A stretch of DNA of 22,136 nucleotides, from IMG/VR virus record IMGVR_UViG_3300030099_001892, positions 1 through 22,136 of that record, one strand, 5' to 3'. The translations under genes were made by a program, and so were the position numbers. Shown in pieces: positions 102 through 11,319 of this stretch; the first letter of the stretch is position 1; each line of letters starts with the position of its first letter. The notes beneath the pieces are model-generated. The model was not told the DNA's origin. It saw only the letters and a program-made list of their open reading frames with translations, and searched no databases. The DNA comes from a virus.

Positions 102-105
102 TTTT
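60..105 (+). terminator. Overlapping terminator-like hairpins ahead of the endolysin gene
   Basis: One hairpin pairs AAAAACGCGG (60-69) with CCGC-C-GTTTTT (74-84) around a TTGA loop, with one bulged base. A second, mutually exclusive pairing joins ACCGCCGTTT (73-82) with AAACGCGGT (92-100), followed by a T run (100-105). Both could end plus-strand transcripts entering from the left. Because they share the same central segment they could also act as an attenuator, which is inference. No clear sigma-70 promoter was found between here and the gene start at 185. Confidence 0.5.
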
Positions 106-184
106 GCAACTTCCCAGTTTCATCAAGCCACCAGCACAATCAACCGATACACCAGTGGGCAACTGCCCGAATGGAGGAACAATC

Positions 185-619
185 ATGTTCAATCTGCTTT
201 CAATCATTGTGGGGCTGTGTGGCCCCGTCACCCCGCCGTTTGAAATGTCCAAGCTGGAACGCGCCATCTGGGCTGTGGAATCATCCTGCCACCCTGGTGG
301 GATTCCAATGTTCTCAGACAAAGGTTTTACCGCTGGTCCGTATTGCATCAGCAAAGCTGCAATGGTGGATTCAGGGGTGCCAGGCAAATGGCCTGATGCT
401 GTGTTTGATCTCCAAACCTCAGTGGATGTGTTCAGGGGATTTCAGGCCAGGTACAACAAACCCCACAGGTTGCCCGCTGGCACCTCCTATGACTACGCCG
501 CTGCCCTGATGTGGAATGGTGGCCCAAACGCCCTGAATGCCCTTCCAGGTTCCCGCAAATGGAAACGGCTGCAAACGTATTGGGGCAAGGTGCAAAAAGA
601 GCTTGCCAGATTGCCCTGA
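185..619 (+). CDS. Lysozyme-like endolysin (muramidase/transglycosylase fold)
   Basis: A 144-residue protein likely to cut peptidoglycan at lysis. After a short hydrophobic N terminus (residues 3-12) that may act as a signal or anchor, it has the lysozyme-superfamily pattern: Glu32 in AIWAVESSC as candidate catalytic acid, the AGPYCISKAA segment at 50-59, the WNGGPNA segment at 110-116, and TYWGKV at 131-136. Similar small lysozymes occur in Planctomycetes and marine phages. The ATG at 185 is chosen because GGAGG lies seven bases upstream; an upstream in-frame start would read through poor-quality sequence. It is followed by its own intrinsic terminator and is on the strand opposite to the membrane-protein block that probably holds the holin. 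It could also be a virion-associated enzyme. Confidence 0.8.
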   Translation: MFNLLSIIVGLCGPVTPPFEMSKLERAIWAVESSCHPGGIPMFSDKGFTAGPYCISKAAMVDSGVPGKWPDAVFDLQTSVDVFRGFQARYNKPHRLPAGTSYDYAAALMWNGGPNALNALPGSRKWKRLQTYWGKVQKELARLP

Positions 620-1933: not shown

Positions 1934-1957
1934 CCCCAGCCAACGCTGGGGTTTTTT
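1934..1957 (+). terminator. Intrinsic terminator at the convergent junction
   Basis: CCCCAGC (1934-1940) pairs with GCTGGGG (1945-1951) around a CAAC loop and is followed by six T residues (1952-1957). It ends the plus-strand cassette. The last bases overlap the stop codon of the convergent minus-strand gene at 1956. Read on the minus strand the same stem is not followed by a T run, so leftward transcription is not clearly stopped here. Confidence 0.88.
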
Positions 1958-2420
1958 ATTTGCGTTTGCGGTTTGGTATCAACAACAGGCCAGCTGCCAG
2001 GGCAGTGCCTGAACCCATGCTGGGCAACATCAAGCTTTCAGAGTAGTCCCACTGGTCAATGCCGAAATCATACATGGGTGATTCTTGACCCAACGTGGGC
2101 AACAGCGGCGGAACGTATGCCAGGAGTAATTTAGAATGTCTGATGTCTTTGTTTTGGGTGTCATGCTCTTCATCACCAGCCTGTGTTGCTTGGGTTGTGG
2201 CATATTGTTCTGGCTCCTCTTCAACCGCTGCAAATGTGTCAACTGCACCCATGATTGCAACTGCCCGTTCAAACGCTTCCTGTCCAATCAGGGTTGCCAG
2301 GATTGCCACAAGAATTGACAAACGCTGTGTGTGGCTTTGCAGCCGCTTCACCTCTTGTTTGCATTCAGCCCCGGCTTTTTGTTCCTGAGCTGCCCGCCGT
2401 TCACAGGCTGGGCAATTCAC
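1956..2420 (-). CDS. Two-TM protein with CPxC motif and basic C-terminal tail
   Basis: No family is recognised. The start is taken as GTG at 2420, overlapping the upstream stop by four bases (GTGA); an in-frame GTG at 2435 would add five residues. The 154-residue product begins with a CPAC motif (residues 3-6), then a charged Glu/Gln/Lys-rich helix, a hydrophobic segment near residues 36-48 (ILVAILATLIG), an acidic middle, and a C terminus with a Ser/Gly hinge, hydrophobic stretch (GTALAAGLLLIP) and NRKRK end. That ending resembles bacterial C-terminal sorting tails such as PEP-CTERM variants, though the usual PEP triplet is not present. Alternatively it is an ordinary second membrane helix with positive-inside topology. 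It is the last gene of the minus-strand block. Confidence 0.68.
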   Translation of the reverse strand: MNCPACERRAAQEQKAGAECKQEVKRLQSHTQRLSILVAILATLIGQEAFERAVAIMGAVDTFAAVEEEPEQYATTQATQAGDEEHDTQNKDIRHSKLLLAYVPPLLPTLGQESPMYDFGIDQWDYSESLMLPSMGSGTALAAGLLLIPNRKRK

Positions 2421-3448
2421 TGGCAAGCGCCCCACTCTGACAATACTTTGATGATTGCATTGAACCCATTGTTGGTTTGGGGGTGGTATTTGAACGCAGC
2501 AACATCACCCAGCACCTGCAACAAATCCTGAAACCCTACCATGCCATCTTCATTCAGGTCTGATGGGCAGCTGTTGTCTGGGTAGTAATTCACAGAATAA
2601 ATTGATGGTTCACATGGGTGGCCGTTGCCACATGCCCAACGCACAACACCACCCGATGAAAAGTAGTTTGGGCCTGTAAACCTGGCAATATGGAATGATC
2701 CCGGGTGCAACTCACTCTCCCAGTCAACATCTGCATTCCATCTAATTAGGTCACCGTAGTCATTCTGTGATGGGGCGCTGCAACACCGTTCACCAACAAT
2801 GTCATCACGGTGTGGCCAAAACTTCAATACGGGGGTATCCATCAAATCTTTGTGCTGCTGCTGAACTAACGGGTACTTATATTGCTGGTTGTTACCGTAC
2901 TTCTTACCCAACGGTCCATGCAAGATCCATGAATCACACCAGGCGTACTCAAGGTCAACCATGTCAGCCGTCCGTGGGCAGCATCCTTGTGGGCCTTCAA
3001 ACACCCAGTTGATTGGGGTGAAATTCATTCCCAGATACATCCAACGCTGGTATGGGTTGGCTTGGATACATTCCCAGTAGGCACCAGGAGCTGGACACTC
3101 AATGCCGGTGTCTGTTGTCCAGTAGTCAATGCACTCTTGGCAGTTTTCCAACCACGGGTATAGGTGGTTTGGTCTGTGGTTTTTAAGGATTGGCCCTTCA
3201 ATGGCCCACCCAAATGAACGGGTTGGGGATTCATTTCCCCTGGTGGAACCAATCATATATGGCCGTCTTGGCTCCCCGTTTGGATAGCTGAAATCAGGAT
3301 CAAACCCAGACTGGATGTAAACATCAAACGTCCTGCCAAACGGTGTCAGTCTGCCCAAGTCATCAATCCACATGGCCACCGCATTGGGGTCAGTGGGTTT
3401 TCCGACGTCAGTGTTCAGGGCCAGGGCCAGTAGTGTTTCTAGGATCAT
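2417..3448 (-). CDS. Exported Cys-rich protein with dockerin-like C terminus
   Basis: The first 260 residues are not recognised: rich in Trp, Tyr and Cys (at least ten Cys), as in a disulphide-bonded extracellular protein. The start is set at the ATG at 3448, which has GAGGTG seven bases upstream; it gives a short hydrophobic N terminus (LETLLALALN) that may be a signal sequence. Residues 294-343 match a dockerin type I-like or EF-hand repeat: Asp297, Asn299, Asp301, Gly302 and Asp308 form a DxNxDGxxxxxD calcium loop followed by LLQVL. A degenerate second half (residues 332-342) ends in VLSEWGAC. Such tails are frequent in exported Planctomycetes proteins. It overlaps the HNH gene by 41 bases. 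A role at the host envelope or in the virion is inference. Confidence 0.75.
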   Translation of the reverse strand: MILETLLALALNTDVGKPTDPNAVAMWIDDLGRLTPFGRTFDVYIQSGFDPDFSYPNGEPRRPYMIGSTRGNESPTRSFGWAIEGPILKNHRPNHLYPWLENCQECIDYWTTDTGIECPAPGAYWECIQANPYQRWMYLGMNFTPINWVFEGPQGCCPRTADMVDLEYAWCDSWILHGPLGKKYGNNQQYKYPLVQQQHKDLMDTPVLKFWPHRDDIVGERCCSAPSQNDYGDLIRWNADVDWESELHPGSFHIARFTGPNYFSSGGVVRWACGNGHPCEPSIYSVNYYPDNSCPSDLNEDGMVGFQDLLQVLGDVAAFKYHPQTNNGFNAIIKVLSEWGACQ

Positions 3449-3803
3449 TGTGCCGCACCTCATATGTGTTCCGTCTAATCAATTCGGAACCCATGCTGGC
3501 ACGCTCAATCGGCTGGCGCTCACTGGCTGTTTTGGTGGCATGGCATGGAATACAGATGCCTTGCAGGTTGTCATAGGAATCATCCCCGCCCTGGGCCAGA
3601 GGTTTTATGTGGTCCACCTGGGCTGATGCTGCCCGCCCACAAACCTTGCAGACAGGATCCCTGGCCAGAATCTGGGCACGTTGCTTCATCCAGCGCCGCC
3701 CCCTGTTTGCCCTGTTGGAACGGTCCTGCCTGGGGTCCGGCCCACGGTCACGCCTGCCCAGCGGAACCAGCCTGCCATCTCCTGTCACCTTGCGGATTGT
3801 CAT
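3408..3803 (-). CDS. HNH endonuclease
   Basis: A 131-residue HNH nuclease. Two zinc-binding Cys pairs (C52/C55 and C84/C87) frame the active site: Asp64-His65 in VDHIKPL, Asn79 in DNLQG, and His88 in CHATK. The N-terminal 40 residues are very basic and probably bind DNA. The start is the ATG at 3803, which overlaps the preceding stop (ATGA). Phage HNH proteins of this size often sit beside the terminase and help packaging; here it lies among membrane-protein genes, far from the head genes, so it may be a packaging accessory, a genome-degrading enzyme or a free-standing homing nuclease. The family call is secure; the role is not. Confidence 0.9.
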   Translation of the reverse strand: MTIRKVTGDGRLVPLGRRDRGPDPRQDRSNRANRGRRWMKQRAQILARDPVCKVCGRAASAQVDHIKPLAQGGDDSYDNLQGICIPCHATKTASERQPIERASMGSELIRRNTYEVRHNDPRNTTGPGPEH

Positions 3804-3895
3804 TTGGTTAAACGCCGAATCACCCGCTGTTTGTGAACCATGCCCAGAATGAATCCAACCACCAAACAACCAACGCACATTCCAACTTCAAACAT
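3800..3895 (-). CDS. 31-residue single-TM protein
   Basis: A very small gene supported by context: AAGGA six bases upstream of the ATG at 3895, a two-base gap from the previous stop and an ATGA overlap with the HNH gene. The product has one hydrophobic segment (residues 4-20, containing two Cys) and a strongly basic tail (HKQRVIRRLTK), which predicts an inner-membrane helix with its C terminus in the cytoplasm. It could be a small holin-associated protein or leader peptide. No family is recognised. Confidence 0.65.
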   Translation of the reverse strand: MFEVGMCVGCLVVGFILGMVHKQRVIRRLTK

Positions 3896-3897
3896 GT

Positions 3898-4272
3898 TCA
3901 ATCCTTTTTGCAACCCCGTTGCCGTTCCCAGCTTCGGGCCAGATAAAAAACCAACATTCCGCCACCAACAACCACTGTGGCTATTGATACCGGAATCAAC
4001 AAACTGTGTTCTAGGGCCAGAAATATTGGTGGCACCAGGCTGATGATGATGCCCACCACCAGCGCCCGCCGCCCTGATGGGCCTGGAAACCAAATCATGG
4101 CCACAATCCCTGCCAGGATTGCCAGCCCCCCTGACAGGCTCAACGGGTACAGACTCCACGCCACATGGTTTTGTGGATTGGGTGCCTCCGGTATTGCCTT
4201 TGACACCCCTGACACAAAAGGGTTTTGAGATGCCTGGCAACCCAACATGAACAGCAAAGACAGCCAACGCAT
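3898..4272 (-). CDS. Multi-TM membrane protein, possible holin
   Basis: A 124-residue membrane protein. The N terminus (MRWLSLLFMLGC) resembles a very short lipoprotein signal with Cys12, though MLGC is not a canonical lipobox. Three hydrophobic segments follow at about residues 44-62, 69-87 and 91-110, and the C terminus is basic (ARSWERQRGCKKD). The ATG at 4272 overlaps the preceding stop by one base (TGATG). Size, three membrane passes and position beside another small TM/coiled-coil gene fit a phage holin or lysis accessory protein, but no specific family is recognised. Confidence 0.65.
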   Translation of the reverse strand: MRWLSLLFMLGCQASQNPFVSGVSKAIPEAPNPQNHVAWSLYPLSLSGGLAILAGIVAMIWFPGPSGRRALVVGIIISLVPPIFLALEHSLLIPVSIATVVVGGGMLVFYLARSWERQRGCKKD

Positions 4273-8890: not shown

Positions 8891-10468
8891 TTATGACATT
8901 GCAGCGCTTCTGCCTGAACCCAGTTTCAACCTGGAACCGCCAACAGACCGCAATACTTTAGACACACCAAAATCAACCTGGCCGCTGGCTGGTCCTGTCA
9001 GGTCCATCAGCCCGCCTGGGTAAACGTCAATGGTGGACATTTCCACAACAGCTTGGGTGGTTCGGTTGATGTTGAACACGCCACCAATCAGGTCACATAC
9101 GCCACCATCAATGCTGGTGCCATTGAACACAATGTTGCCACCACGCTGGGTGAACTCTGGCATGGCCCCAGTTGTGTGTTTGAATGAACCGTTGCCCGTC
9201 ACTTCCAGAGTGTCACCGGATGCTGCAACCGAACGCTTCACAGCGCCACCAAATCCAACCGTGGTTTTGAATGGCACCCCGCTTGTGTGGCTGCACAAAC
9301 CACCGTTGCCAGACGGGTGCCGCACATCAATGTTCATGGTGCCGCTGGTGGTCAGGCCCAGGGTTGTCGGATCTTTGGAACGCACAAACAGGTTGGTTGA
9401 TGAACCAGACAGATTCACACCATTGGCCGATTCAGTCACAAACGTTTTGGTGTTGCTGGCCATTTGAATGTTGATGTTGGAACGGCTTGAACCAATCACA
9501 ACTTCATCTGCTGTGAATGTTCTGGGGCTGCTGCTGGTGCCAATGTTGCCCGTATATCCGTCTGTGATGAACACACTTCCAGCTGTCAATGAACCAGTTG
9601 TGGCATCAACGTTGCCAGTATTAAACAACACCTTATCAGTGGCTGACGGAACTACGCCACCACTCCAATTCAACGCAACATCAAGACTGGTACCCCTGTC
9701 ACCTGTCCAAACAATTGGGTCAATCTTTGGCTTGTGAAACCTGTATGTGTGGTCATCTGGCAGGTTGGTTTGCAGCCCATACTTCCAAGCTAAATAGCCC
9801 TCAACTTTTTCACGGTTTGCTGTGGTCAGTGTTGCACCGCCAACCAGAACTTCCGCTATGTCACCAACCATCGGGCCTGCACCTATAGCCCTGGATCCAA
9901 TATCAAACACGTTTGAGTTTGAAATGCTGCCATTGTCTGTGGTGTTGGTCACGTTCATAGGTGAACCGTCCACAAACCCATTGTTATTGTTTGAAACCCT
10001 TGAACCCGTCACTAAAACAAAATTTGTTCTACTCCAATTTCCAGATGTTTGAACTGGCCCGTTTGTGGTTGAACCCATGCAAATCCTAAGGTCCCCATTT
10101 GCTAGGCATGACAAACCAAACTGTTGGTGCCCTTTTTCAAAATAGTCCTGCACCCCAGAATCATCAGTTGATTTCAACAGGCATGCCATCCATACATCAC
10201 CTGTTCCAACGTCCAATGCCGCAATGTCACTATCCGACAAAATATCATTGGTCCCATCAAACCTGACAGTTGGCTGCCCGTTCAATTCATTTGTTTGCAA
10301 TGTTGGCTGCCTCACCGCAACTGATTGGCTTGTGTCATTGCCGTTGCCGGATGAATCTGACCAGGCTGCAACAGCATCCCCATCTGATCCGCTGATGCTG
10401 TCTGCCTTATACCAGGCTGTCAGAATAGATGTGCCTAGCTCTGATGGTGTCCAATCTCCACCAGCCAT
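8891..10468 (-). CDS. Tail fibre-like protein: LamG domain plus beta-helix module
   Basis: A 525-residue protein. Residues 13-235 are a LamG/concanavalin-type domain: LTAWYKADSI, WSDSSGNGND, PTVRFDGTND, the strand GDIAEVLV and ANREKVEGYLAWKYG are the usual landmarks. Residues 252 onward (WTG, ALNWSGGVVP, DKVLFN, ITDGYTG) start a beta-helix-like region rich in Gly, Ser, Thr and Asn. LamG domains bind glycans, so this is a strong candidate for receptor binding. The ATG at 10468 overlaps the previous stop by one base (TGATG); a GTG at 10471 is possible. It is last in the tail block and therefore likely distal in the virion. Confidence 0.8.
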   Translation of the reverse strand: MAGGDWTPSELGTSILTAWYKADSISGSDGDAVAAWSDSSGNGNDTSQSVAVRQPTLQTNELNGQPTVRFDGTNDILSDSDIAALDVGTGDVWMACLLKSTDDSGVQDYFEKGHQQFGLSCLANGDLRICMGSTTNGPVQTSGNWSRTNFVLVTGSRVSNNNNGFVDGSPMNVTNTTDNGSISNSNVFDIGSRAIGAGPMVGDIAEVLVGGATLTTANREKVEGYLAWKYGLQTNLPDDHTYRFHKPKIDPIVWTGDRGTSLDVALNWSGGVVPSATDKVLFNTGNVDATTGSLTAGSVFITDGYTGNIGTSSSPRTFTADEVVIGSSRSNINIQMASNTKTFVTESANGVNLSGSSTNLFVRSKDPTTLGLTTSGTMNIDVRHPSGNGGLCSHTSGVPFKTTVGFGGAVKRSVAASGDTLEVTGNGSFKHTTGAMPEFTQRGGNIVFNGTSIDGGVCDLIGGVFNINRTTQAVVEMSTIDVYPGGLMDLTGPASGQVDFGVSKVLRSVGGSRLKLGSGRSAAMS

Positions 10469-11319
10469 CACGTCACCGTCAATGTTCGGGATACATCTGG
10501 CCGAATGGTGCCAGTCCCATTCACAACAATGCCGTTGCTGAATGTGGTTGTGGCTGCTCCGTTCCGCTCATCAATCACACCATCAAACAAAATTGTGTTT
10601 GTGAACACAGCCCCTGTGCTGGTGGAGTTGTCTGTAGTGGTTGCCAGGCAGGCTGAATCAAACACGTTTAGGTTGGTCACGGTGCCTGTTGAATTGTGTT
10701 CCAGCGCGCCTGTGCTTGTAAGGTTGATAGTGGTGCCCCCAGCTGTCCCGGTCAGCTCTAATGTTCCACCAGACACATCAGCCGTAGTGAATGACTCAGC
10801 CGTGGTTAATGTCCCAGAATCCATCAGGATGTTGGTGAAACTGGATGATGTTGATAGAACAGACAACACTGCTTGGTCGGCCCCCAGCATTTGAACCGTG
10901 GTTAATCCAGCTGATGCCACCTCCACCGCACCTTTGCCACCTGTGATTCTCAGGGTGGTGAATTGGCTGCTGCTGCCAAACGTCACATTGGGGCTGGCTG
11001 CTGTCCCTGGGAACATGTCTGTGATGATTGCCGTTGTGTAGTGCCCATCCAAATGGATTTTGGCCTGGTCTGTGGCAACCAGCAAACTTGTGGCCATCAC
11101 CTCCAGCTTGGTGCCAGTCACCCCCAGGCTCCCCGTGAACCCGTCTAGGATCTTCAAACTGCCGTATGTGGTCCCCGCCACGCTGCTGGAAATGGTCACA
11201 TCACGGCTAGTGGAATTGAAAATGACATCATCCCCAGCCCCTGGCAATGCGCCTGTTGACCAATTGCTGGTGGTGTTCCAATCACCATCTGTTGCCCCTG
11301 TCCATGTAACTGTTGCCAT
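10468..11319 (-). CDS. Beta-helix-like tail protein
   Basis: A 283-residue protein of low complexity, rich in Thr, Ser, Gly, Val and Asn, with almost no Lys. It begins with WTGATDGDWN..NWSTGALPGAGDDVIFN (residues 6-35), a pattern familiar from autotransporter-like repeats, and includes SLKILDGFTG (about 54-63). The rest alternates strand-length segments as in a parallel beta-helix. There is no signal peptide. The ATG at 11319 has AAGGAA upstream. It shares its opening module with the next gene, so the two probably form related parts of a fibre or tail-surface structure. Confidence 0.65.
   Translation of the reverse strand: MATVTWTGATDGDWNTTSNWSTGALPGAGDDVIFNSTSRDVTISSSVAGTTYGSLKILDGFTGSLGVTGTKLEVMATSLLVATDQAKIHLDGHYTTAIITDMFPGTAASPNVTFGSSSQFTTLRITGGKGAVEVASAGLTTVQMLGADQAVLSVLSTSSSFTNILMDSGTLTTAESFTTADVSGGTLELTGTAGGTTINLTSTGALEHNSTGTVTNLNVFDSACLATTTDNSTSTGAVFTNTILFDGVIDERNGAATTTFSNGIVVNGTGTIRPDVSRTLTVT

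Follow-up and report, generated by a model that had tools for sequence, protein, structure and literature searches.

Most of what is known about phage proteins that are exported and act on the host envelope comes from a small number of model bacteria. The closest described examples are the exclusion lipoproteins T5 Llp, which is exported and carries a disulfide (PMC9586334), T1 Cor, and the Ltp of a Streptococcus phage, which is exposed at the cell surface (PMC3952083). At the level of gene organization, the nearest comparison is with phage morons, extra genes that lie between genes adjacent in relatives and are horizontally exchanged. At the level of protein architecture, two kinds of dockerin are relevant: GC-type dockerins (NF041540), which form the C-terminal ends of proteins secreted by Phycisphaerae/Planctomycetota and Flavobacteriales, and type I cellulosome dockerins (PF00404; PDB 2y3n and 6kg9), built from calcium-loop and helix repeats. 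For one family of freshwater planctomycetes, a complex of cohesin and dockerin has been proposed (PMC6461901). The gene analyzed here (the main gene) resembles each of these systems in part. Like the exclusion lipoproteins, its product is phage-coded and predicted to be exported, but it is much larger, is not a lipoprotein, carries a dockerin-like module rather than a lipid for attachment, and showed no sequence relation to them. The family appears to be undescribed, and a mobile exported accessory gene is, as a kind, known; our literature search, which covered few subscription journals, returned nothing on dockerins in phages or on genes of this sort in phages of planctomycetes.

The main gene lies in the window, that is, the entire 22,136-nucleotide stretch of an IMG/VR virus record, which derives from an HK97-type tailed phage: a PHROG search picked out protease, capsid, connectors, tail, and tape measure. 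Coordinates are collected in Table 1. An earlier note, made from the DNA letters, had described a phage gene for a Cys-rich, probably exported protein with a body of no recognized family and a C terminus of the type seen on exported planctomycete proteins, and the analysis supports this description. The main protein has 13 Cys, of which 10 are invariant and the other three are present in 58–60 of 70 near-complete homologs, and its most hydrophobic 9-mer falls within the first 30 residues in all 59 copies tested. Among the copies the N-terminal sequence varies freely, in signal-peptide fashion, and several T4-like copies begin with textbook signal peptides (MRHFLTLVVCTLSSFSFA-SES); in the window copy the hydrophobic stretch is short and without positive charge. 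The main protein is thus predicted to be exported. It ends in VLSEWGACQ, and the loop and the VLSEWGAC ending match the ends of Phycisphaerae secreted proteins. Since both are also conserved in the homologs, the resemblance is, as judged from these alignments, not due to chance.

Table 1. Positions of the features in the window and, where a locus is named, in related phage loci.
Feature	Position	Strand	Basis or remark
Main gene: 343-aa Cys-rich protein, predicted to be exported, with GC-type-dockerin-like C terminus	2417..3448	-	
Shine-Dalgarno-like GAGGTG, 7 nt before the main-gene ATG (3448)	3456..3461	-	Sequence reading; within the end of the HNH gene
Hydrophobic N terminus MILETLLALALNTDVG, probable short signal peptide	3401..3448	-	Hydrophobic 9-mer test
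Body, residues 17-292, apparently phage-specific, 11 Cys	2573..3400	-	No Pfam/PHROG match
GC-type-dockerin-like C-terminal module, C294 to C342	2423..2569	-	
Predicted calcium-loop motif DLNEDGMVGFQD, DxNxDGxxxxxD, residues 297-308	2525..2560	-	
HNH endonuclease gene upstream, left border of insertion	3408..3878	-	PF01844 E 2.1e-11; PHROG 589; overlaps main-gene start
Membrane-protein gene downstream, right border of insertion	1956..2420	-	GTG start overlaps main-gene stop as GTGA
Predicted lipoprotein (MLGC lipobox), about three TM segments	3898..4272	-	Family at 43/95 carrier loci
Lysozyme-like product	104-619	+	
Repetitive tail-fibre-like proteins	10468-11319, 8891-10471	-	
Tandem divergent paralogs	L348 4018-6957; L349 3959-6976; L350 1763-4756		
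Exported protein of about 210 aa	L020 11079-11711		

The C-terminal tail was compared with cellular sequences at several levels of sensitivity. A scan of the genome collection steered to CPxDLN[GE]DG returned the C termini of secreted proteins of Phycisphaerales, other Planctomycetota, and Flavobacteriales; marine Phycisphaera proteins end CPSDLNEDGFVGFSDVLEVVASWGPC.... Comparison of the profile of the last 50 residues of the phage proteins with that of the host tails gave a 54-column alignment (hhalign probability 99, E 4.8e-18, an optimistic value because the host set was selected by similarity), and this alignment is not confined to the search patterns but runs on along the second helix as far as the closing WGxC. 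In the joint alignment of 43 phage and host sequences, the residues C, D, D, G, and C are invariant, and C294 and C342, present in 70 of 70 homologs, place a Cys at both ends of the module (C...WGxC) at the extreme C terminus. The features in common with GC-type dockerins are this terminal position, the first repeat CPxDLNxDGxVxxxDLLxVL, the WGxC ending, and the Cys clasp, as exemplified by the marine Phycisphaera sequence CPSDLNEDGFVGFSDVLEVVASWG (L162). Unlike in these dockerins, the second repeat of the phage tail is about 5 residues shorter and without Asp ligands, leaving only one of two calcium loops intact, and the body is phage-only. Type I dockerins have the calcium-loop and helix repeat in common with the phage tail and are related to it via the host sequences, whereas the phage tail has one loop only and no cohesin partner in most likely hosts.

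The host tails are themselves recognized by NF041540 and PF00404, and they also match dockerins of known structure, for example 2y3n (E 1.5e-7). For NF041540 there was no match at E<=10 with the main protein, its tail, or two divergent homologs; PF00404 matched neither main protein nor tail; and the phage-only tail profile reached E 0.13-0.18 against PDB dockerins, which is not significant. The earlier proposal of a dockerin-like calcium module is therefore without a dockerin or EF-hand match by direct HMM search. Profile-profile comparison does match the tail to GC-type dockerins, which in turn match NF041540/PF00404 and solved dockerins, and for this reason we consider the direct search too insensitive to speak against the module. 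Of that proposal, the dockerin likeness stands, and the second calcium loop is missing. By these comparisons, the tail is a diverged GC-type-dockerin-like module that falls outside the curated family by its cut-off. Without the second loop, the tail may depart from dockerins in its native fold and in any calcium binding. AlphaFold2 returned a confident two-helix module for the tail (pLDDT 89.8); a Foldseek search with this model, a domain very small for Foldseek, gave no dockerin and nothing at E<=0.001.

The relevant host systems are present in 12 Phycisphaerae genomes, with 13-87 NF041540 matches in each, PEP-CTERM in all 12, and exosortase in 11. From the presence of dockerin and PEP-CTERM systems, we infer that Planctomycetota fits the host better than Flavobacteriales, and the carriers of the gene probably infect planctomycetes. 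Capsid similarity gave no pointer to the host.

The body, in which we recognize the motifs GRLTPFGRTFDVYI, W.C.Q.NP.Q, W.DSW, and W.S..PGSFHIARFTGP, has no relative in the genome collection, in the 12 Phycisphaerae genomes, or in 397 genomes of that class, while its profile, as a positive control, found the main gene in 4 of 4 phage records. A wider family profile produced four weak hits in the 397 genomes (three of about 20 residues and one of 45), about the level expected by chance. Because no cellular relative appears in the searched genomes while the same profile finds phage copies, the body is phage-specific at this sensitivity, and only the tail looks host-derived. Direct HMM scans with the main protein, the tail, and family members gave no Pfam, PHROG, or NCBIfam match. 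Matches of protein and profile to PDB sequences of S100, aldose reductase, and carbonic anhydrase (E 0.07 or worse) were discarded as chance or an EF-like loop. AlphaFold2 modeled the full-length protein poorly (pLDDT 46.8), and nothing can be read from the Foldseek matches of that model (best E 1.6).

Homologs at 61-91% identity occur at more than 80 IMG/VR loci (69 in the first scan), whereas a search of 50,697 phage records gave no match up to E 10, and no relative was found in a cultured phage. Gene clusters and PHROG typing identify the carriers as T4-like phages (sheath, tube, gp23-type capsid, UvsW-type helicase), T7-like phages (portal, DNA polymerase, primase-helicase), and phages of the window's HK97 type and other terminase types, most of which have little or nothing else in common with the window. 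In T4-like carriers the main gene adjoins the capsid gene, and in T7-like carriers it is found close to the portal gene or immediately ahead of it. On the gene tree, phage types change 21 times against a minimum of 5, several of the changes being forced by well-supported branches alone, and the types are still partly clustered; thus, both inheritance and transfer occur. Synonymous sites are saturated in most pairs, and the pairs with measurable dS have a median dN/dS of 0.09. The carrier G+C of 37-57% inflates the synonymous differences, but protein conservation is still clear, and selection on the main gene is strongly purifying. Because synonymous sites are mostly saturated, we reject the idea that the gene is conserved merely through recent transfer.

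Two close relatives of the window phage (L252 and L253; exonuclease 93-95% identical) have the same neighbors and no copy of the main gene. In them the HNH gene is directly followed by the downstream gene, and the window and L254 differ from this arrangement by an insertion. In the T4-like loci L020, L021, and L023, the main gene and a gene for an exported PEP-CTERM-like protein lie between the gp23 capsid gene and the gp19-type tube genes; among the matches listed, 72 T4-like relatives with both flanking genes carry neither inserted gene, and the distance from flank to flank in such relatives has a median of 129 nt and stays under 250 nt for 67 of the 71 values tallied. Insertion between genes that adjoin in close relatives, as in morons, is thus found both around the window and in the T4-like relatives listed. 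That the main gene is a mobile accessory (moron-type) phage gene is well supported. It differs from known morons in that it sits in both T4-like and T7-like phages, and in that its own promoter and terminator are only partly shown: TATAAATA occurs a short distance ahead of the inserted operon in L357, L359, and L029 and also before sheath and tube in L020, and a hairpin with a T run follows the capsid gene in other T4-like carriers, in each case outside the window.

The inserted operon varies in composition. In L050, L084, and L089-L091, a gene for a 278-aa predicted exported protein stands between the main gene and the PEP-CTERM-like gene; this protein has a dockerin-like end, and the only part of its body shared with the main protein is the N-terminal motif, which is similar in the two. 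In L348, L349, L350, L356, L357, and L359, the main gene is absent and two or three further paralogs (280-380 aa) are present, with the PEP-CTERM-like gene following where visible. One paralog is homologous over the entire body (hhalign probability 99.8, E 1e-29, 32% identity), and the invariant positions of the longer forms include GR.TP.GRT.D.Y, C...NP, W...W, and R.TG. The tandem paralogs are each predicted to be exported and dockerin-tailed, and they apparently take the place of the main gene, either at its T4-like site or close to baseplate genes. The accompanying signal-peptide protein of about 210 aa, with the tail IPAPxxLxLLGxxxxxRRR, is encoded in L020 and 13 other T4-like loci, where its gene is inserted together with the main gene or with paralogs of it. 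One member matches PF07589 (E 0.0019; 18.7 bits against a cut-off of 20.7), the PF07589/TIGR02595 match being weaker or absent in the others, and the tail aligns to Phycisphaerae PEP-CTERM ends. This partner is likely a phage-encoded PEP-CTERM substrate.

We are confident that the main protein is an accessory protein that is exported and ends in a dockerin tail like those of the host, and we consider it probable that it acts at the host envelope. That unrelated phages share an exported protein whose tail imitates a host surface-attachment module suggests that it serves them to change the surface of cells they infect. As a plausible sequence of events, the main protein would be made alongside virion proteins, as its position by the capsid or portal gene and the upstream TATAAATA suggest. 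It would then be exported by the host and form several disulfides on folding, and its tail, resembling host GC-type dockerin ends, would hold it at the host surface, thereby altering it. Calcium binding, surface attachment, and late expression are inferred here. Our first choice among surface roles would be superinfection exclusion or receptor masking. Four points lead us to it: the gene can be dispensed with, it passes between phages that compete, it is specific to phages, and other exported phage proteins are known to act in this way. Such a role would also keep progeny from sticking to debris. Exclusion, proposed by analogy, is the least certain element, and we favor it only tentatively; a receptor blocker common to three morphotypes would need a shared target. 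On whether a phage-specific exported module of one to three Cys-rich dockerin-tailed paralogs and the PEP-CTERM-like protein, shared by several unrelated types of lytic phage, re-coats the planctomycete cell via two host attachment routes, we are almost evenly divided, leaning slightly to the negative. In favor of the overall explanation we count the N-terminal signal, the invariant Cys, the tail-host alignment, the PEP-CTERM-like partners together with host exosortase, the empty sites, the three carrier types, the mixing on the tree, the low dN/dS, the adjacency to head genes, and TATAAATA; against it we count the short N-terminal stretch of the window copy with no positive charge, the lost second loop, the Foldseek result without a dockerin, and the poor body model. 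Exclusion, lysis, and other surface roles are not told apart by these observations; the earlier note had listed superinfection exclusion and envelope weakening at lysis among its options.

A contribution to lysis, in which a late exported protein disrupts or detaches the outer layers together with neighboring membrane proteins, is unlikely. It would agree with the placement among head and late genes in T4-like and T7-like carriers, with the three-TM lipoprotein family at many of the loci, and with a lysozyme-like gene that, in the window and in relatives, lies at a distance of about 2 kb. However, L252 and L253 keep the membrane-protein genes without the main gene, and L253 also keeps the lysozyme-like gene, which makes it unlikely that the main gene is needed for lysis; moreover, no enzyme family was found. 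We also regard as improbable a nutrient or host-benefit auxiliary gene whose displayed product keeps the infected cell particle-attached or feeding until lysis. The host-style surface modules speak for it, as does the exchange of the main gene among unrelated lytic phages, which resembles that of photosystem genes in cyanophages; yet auxiliary metabolic genes normally have host copies, whereas the body has no cellular homolog. A virion component, for instance a decoration or an adhesin gripping sites on new hosts, would account for the proximity to capsid and portal genes, but is quite unlikely given an N-terminal export signal and conserved paired Cys in a protein that would have to join virions assembled in the cytoplasm, and given the same sequence in three different virion architectures. 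Least likely, and rejected as the main model, is true cellulosome-style docking to a host cohesin scaffold, as the earlier note had suggested: the loop, the clasp, and the cohesin/dockerin pairs described in one freshwater planctomycete family (PMC6461901) would suit it, but the tail has a single loop and no PF00404 match, and although each of the 12 Phycisphaerae genomes has its many GC-type dockerin matches, cohesin (PF00963) occurs in 1 and is absent from 11.

The preferred reading, an exported protein that alters the infected-cell surface, makes a testable prediction, namely superinfection exclusion across phage types. The main gene can also serve to mark phages that infect uncultured bacteria of the Phycisphaerae type, a group of phages about which very little is known. 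Because the phage kept the module while losing half of its calcium sites, the gene offers, in addition, a handle on the function of GC-type dockerins.

Several neighboring genes recur among the carriers. The product of the gene downstream of the main gene has an N-terminal CPxC coiled coil, one TM segment, a VPPLL motif, and a PEP-CTERM-like tail ending RKRK, and gave no HMM match; its family, found at 36 of 95 carrier loci and also in L252 and L253, has a VPPLLxxL motif and a VPEVG...RRRK tail that resembles PEP-CTERM/LPXTG-type sorting signals. The predicted lipoprotein upstream is a possible lysis or envelope protein. The lysozyme-like product (ESSCHP...GPYCISK...), which we take to resemble invertebrate-type lysozyme, has no Pfam or PHROG match and is shared with 13 carrier loci. 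A calcineurin-like phosphoesterase gene often lies within 1 kb of the main gene (L008, L011-L014, L028, L062, and others in a 19-locus cluster; PF00149 E 1e-8 in L062). The repetitive tail-fibre-like proteins of the window (TWTGATDGDWNTTSNWSTGALPG), with a LamG-like region, have a probable role in host recognition, and pieces of them are common to 26 carrier loci across phage types.
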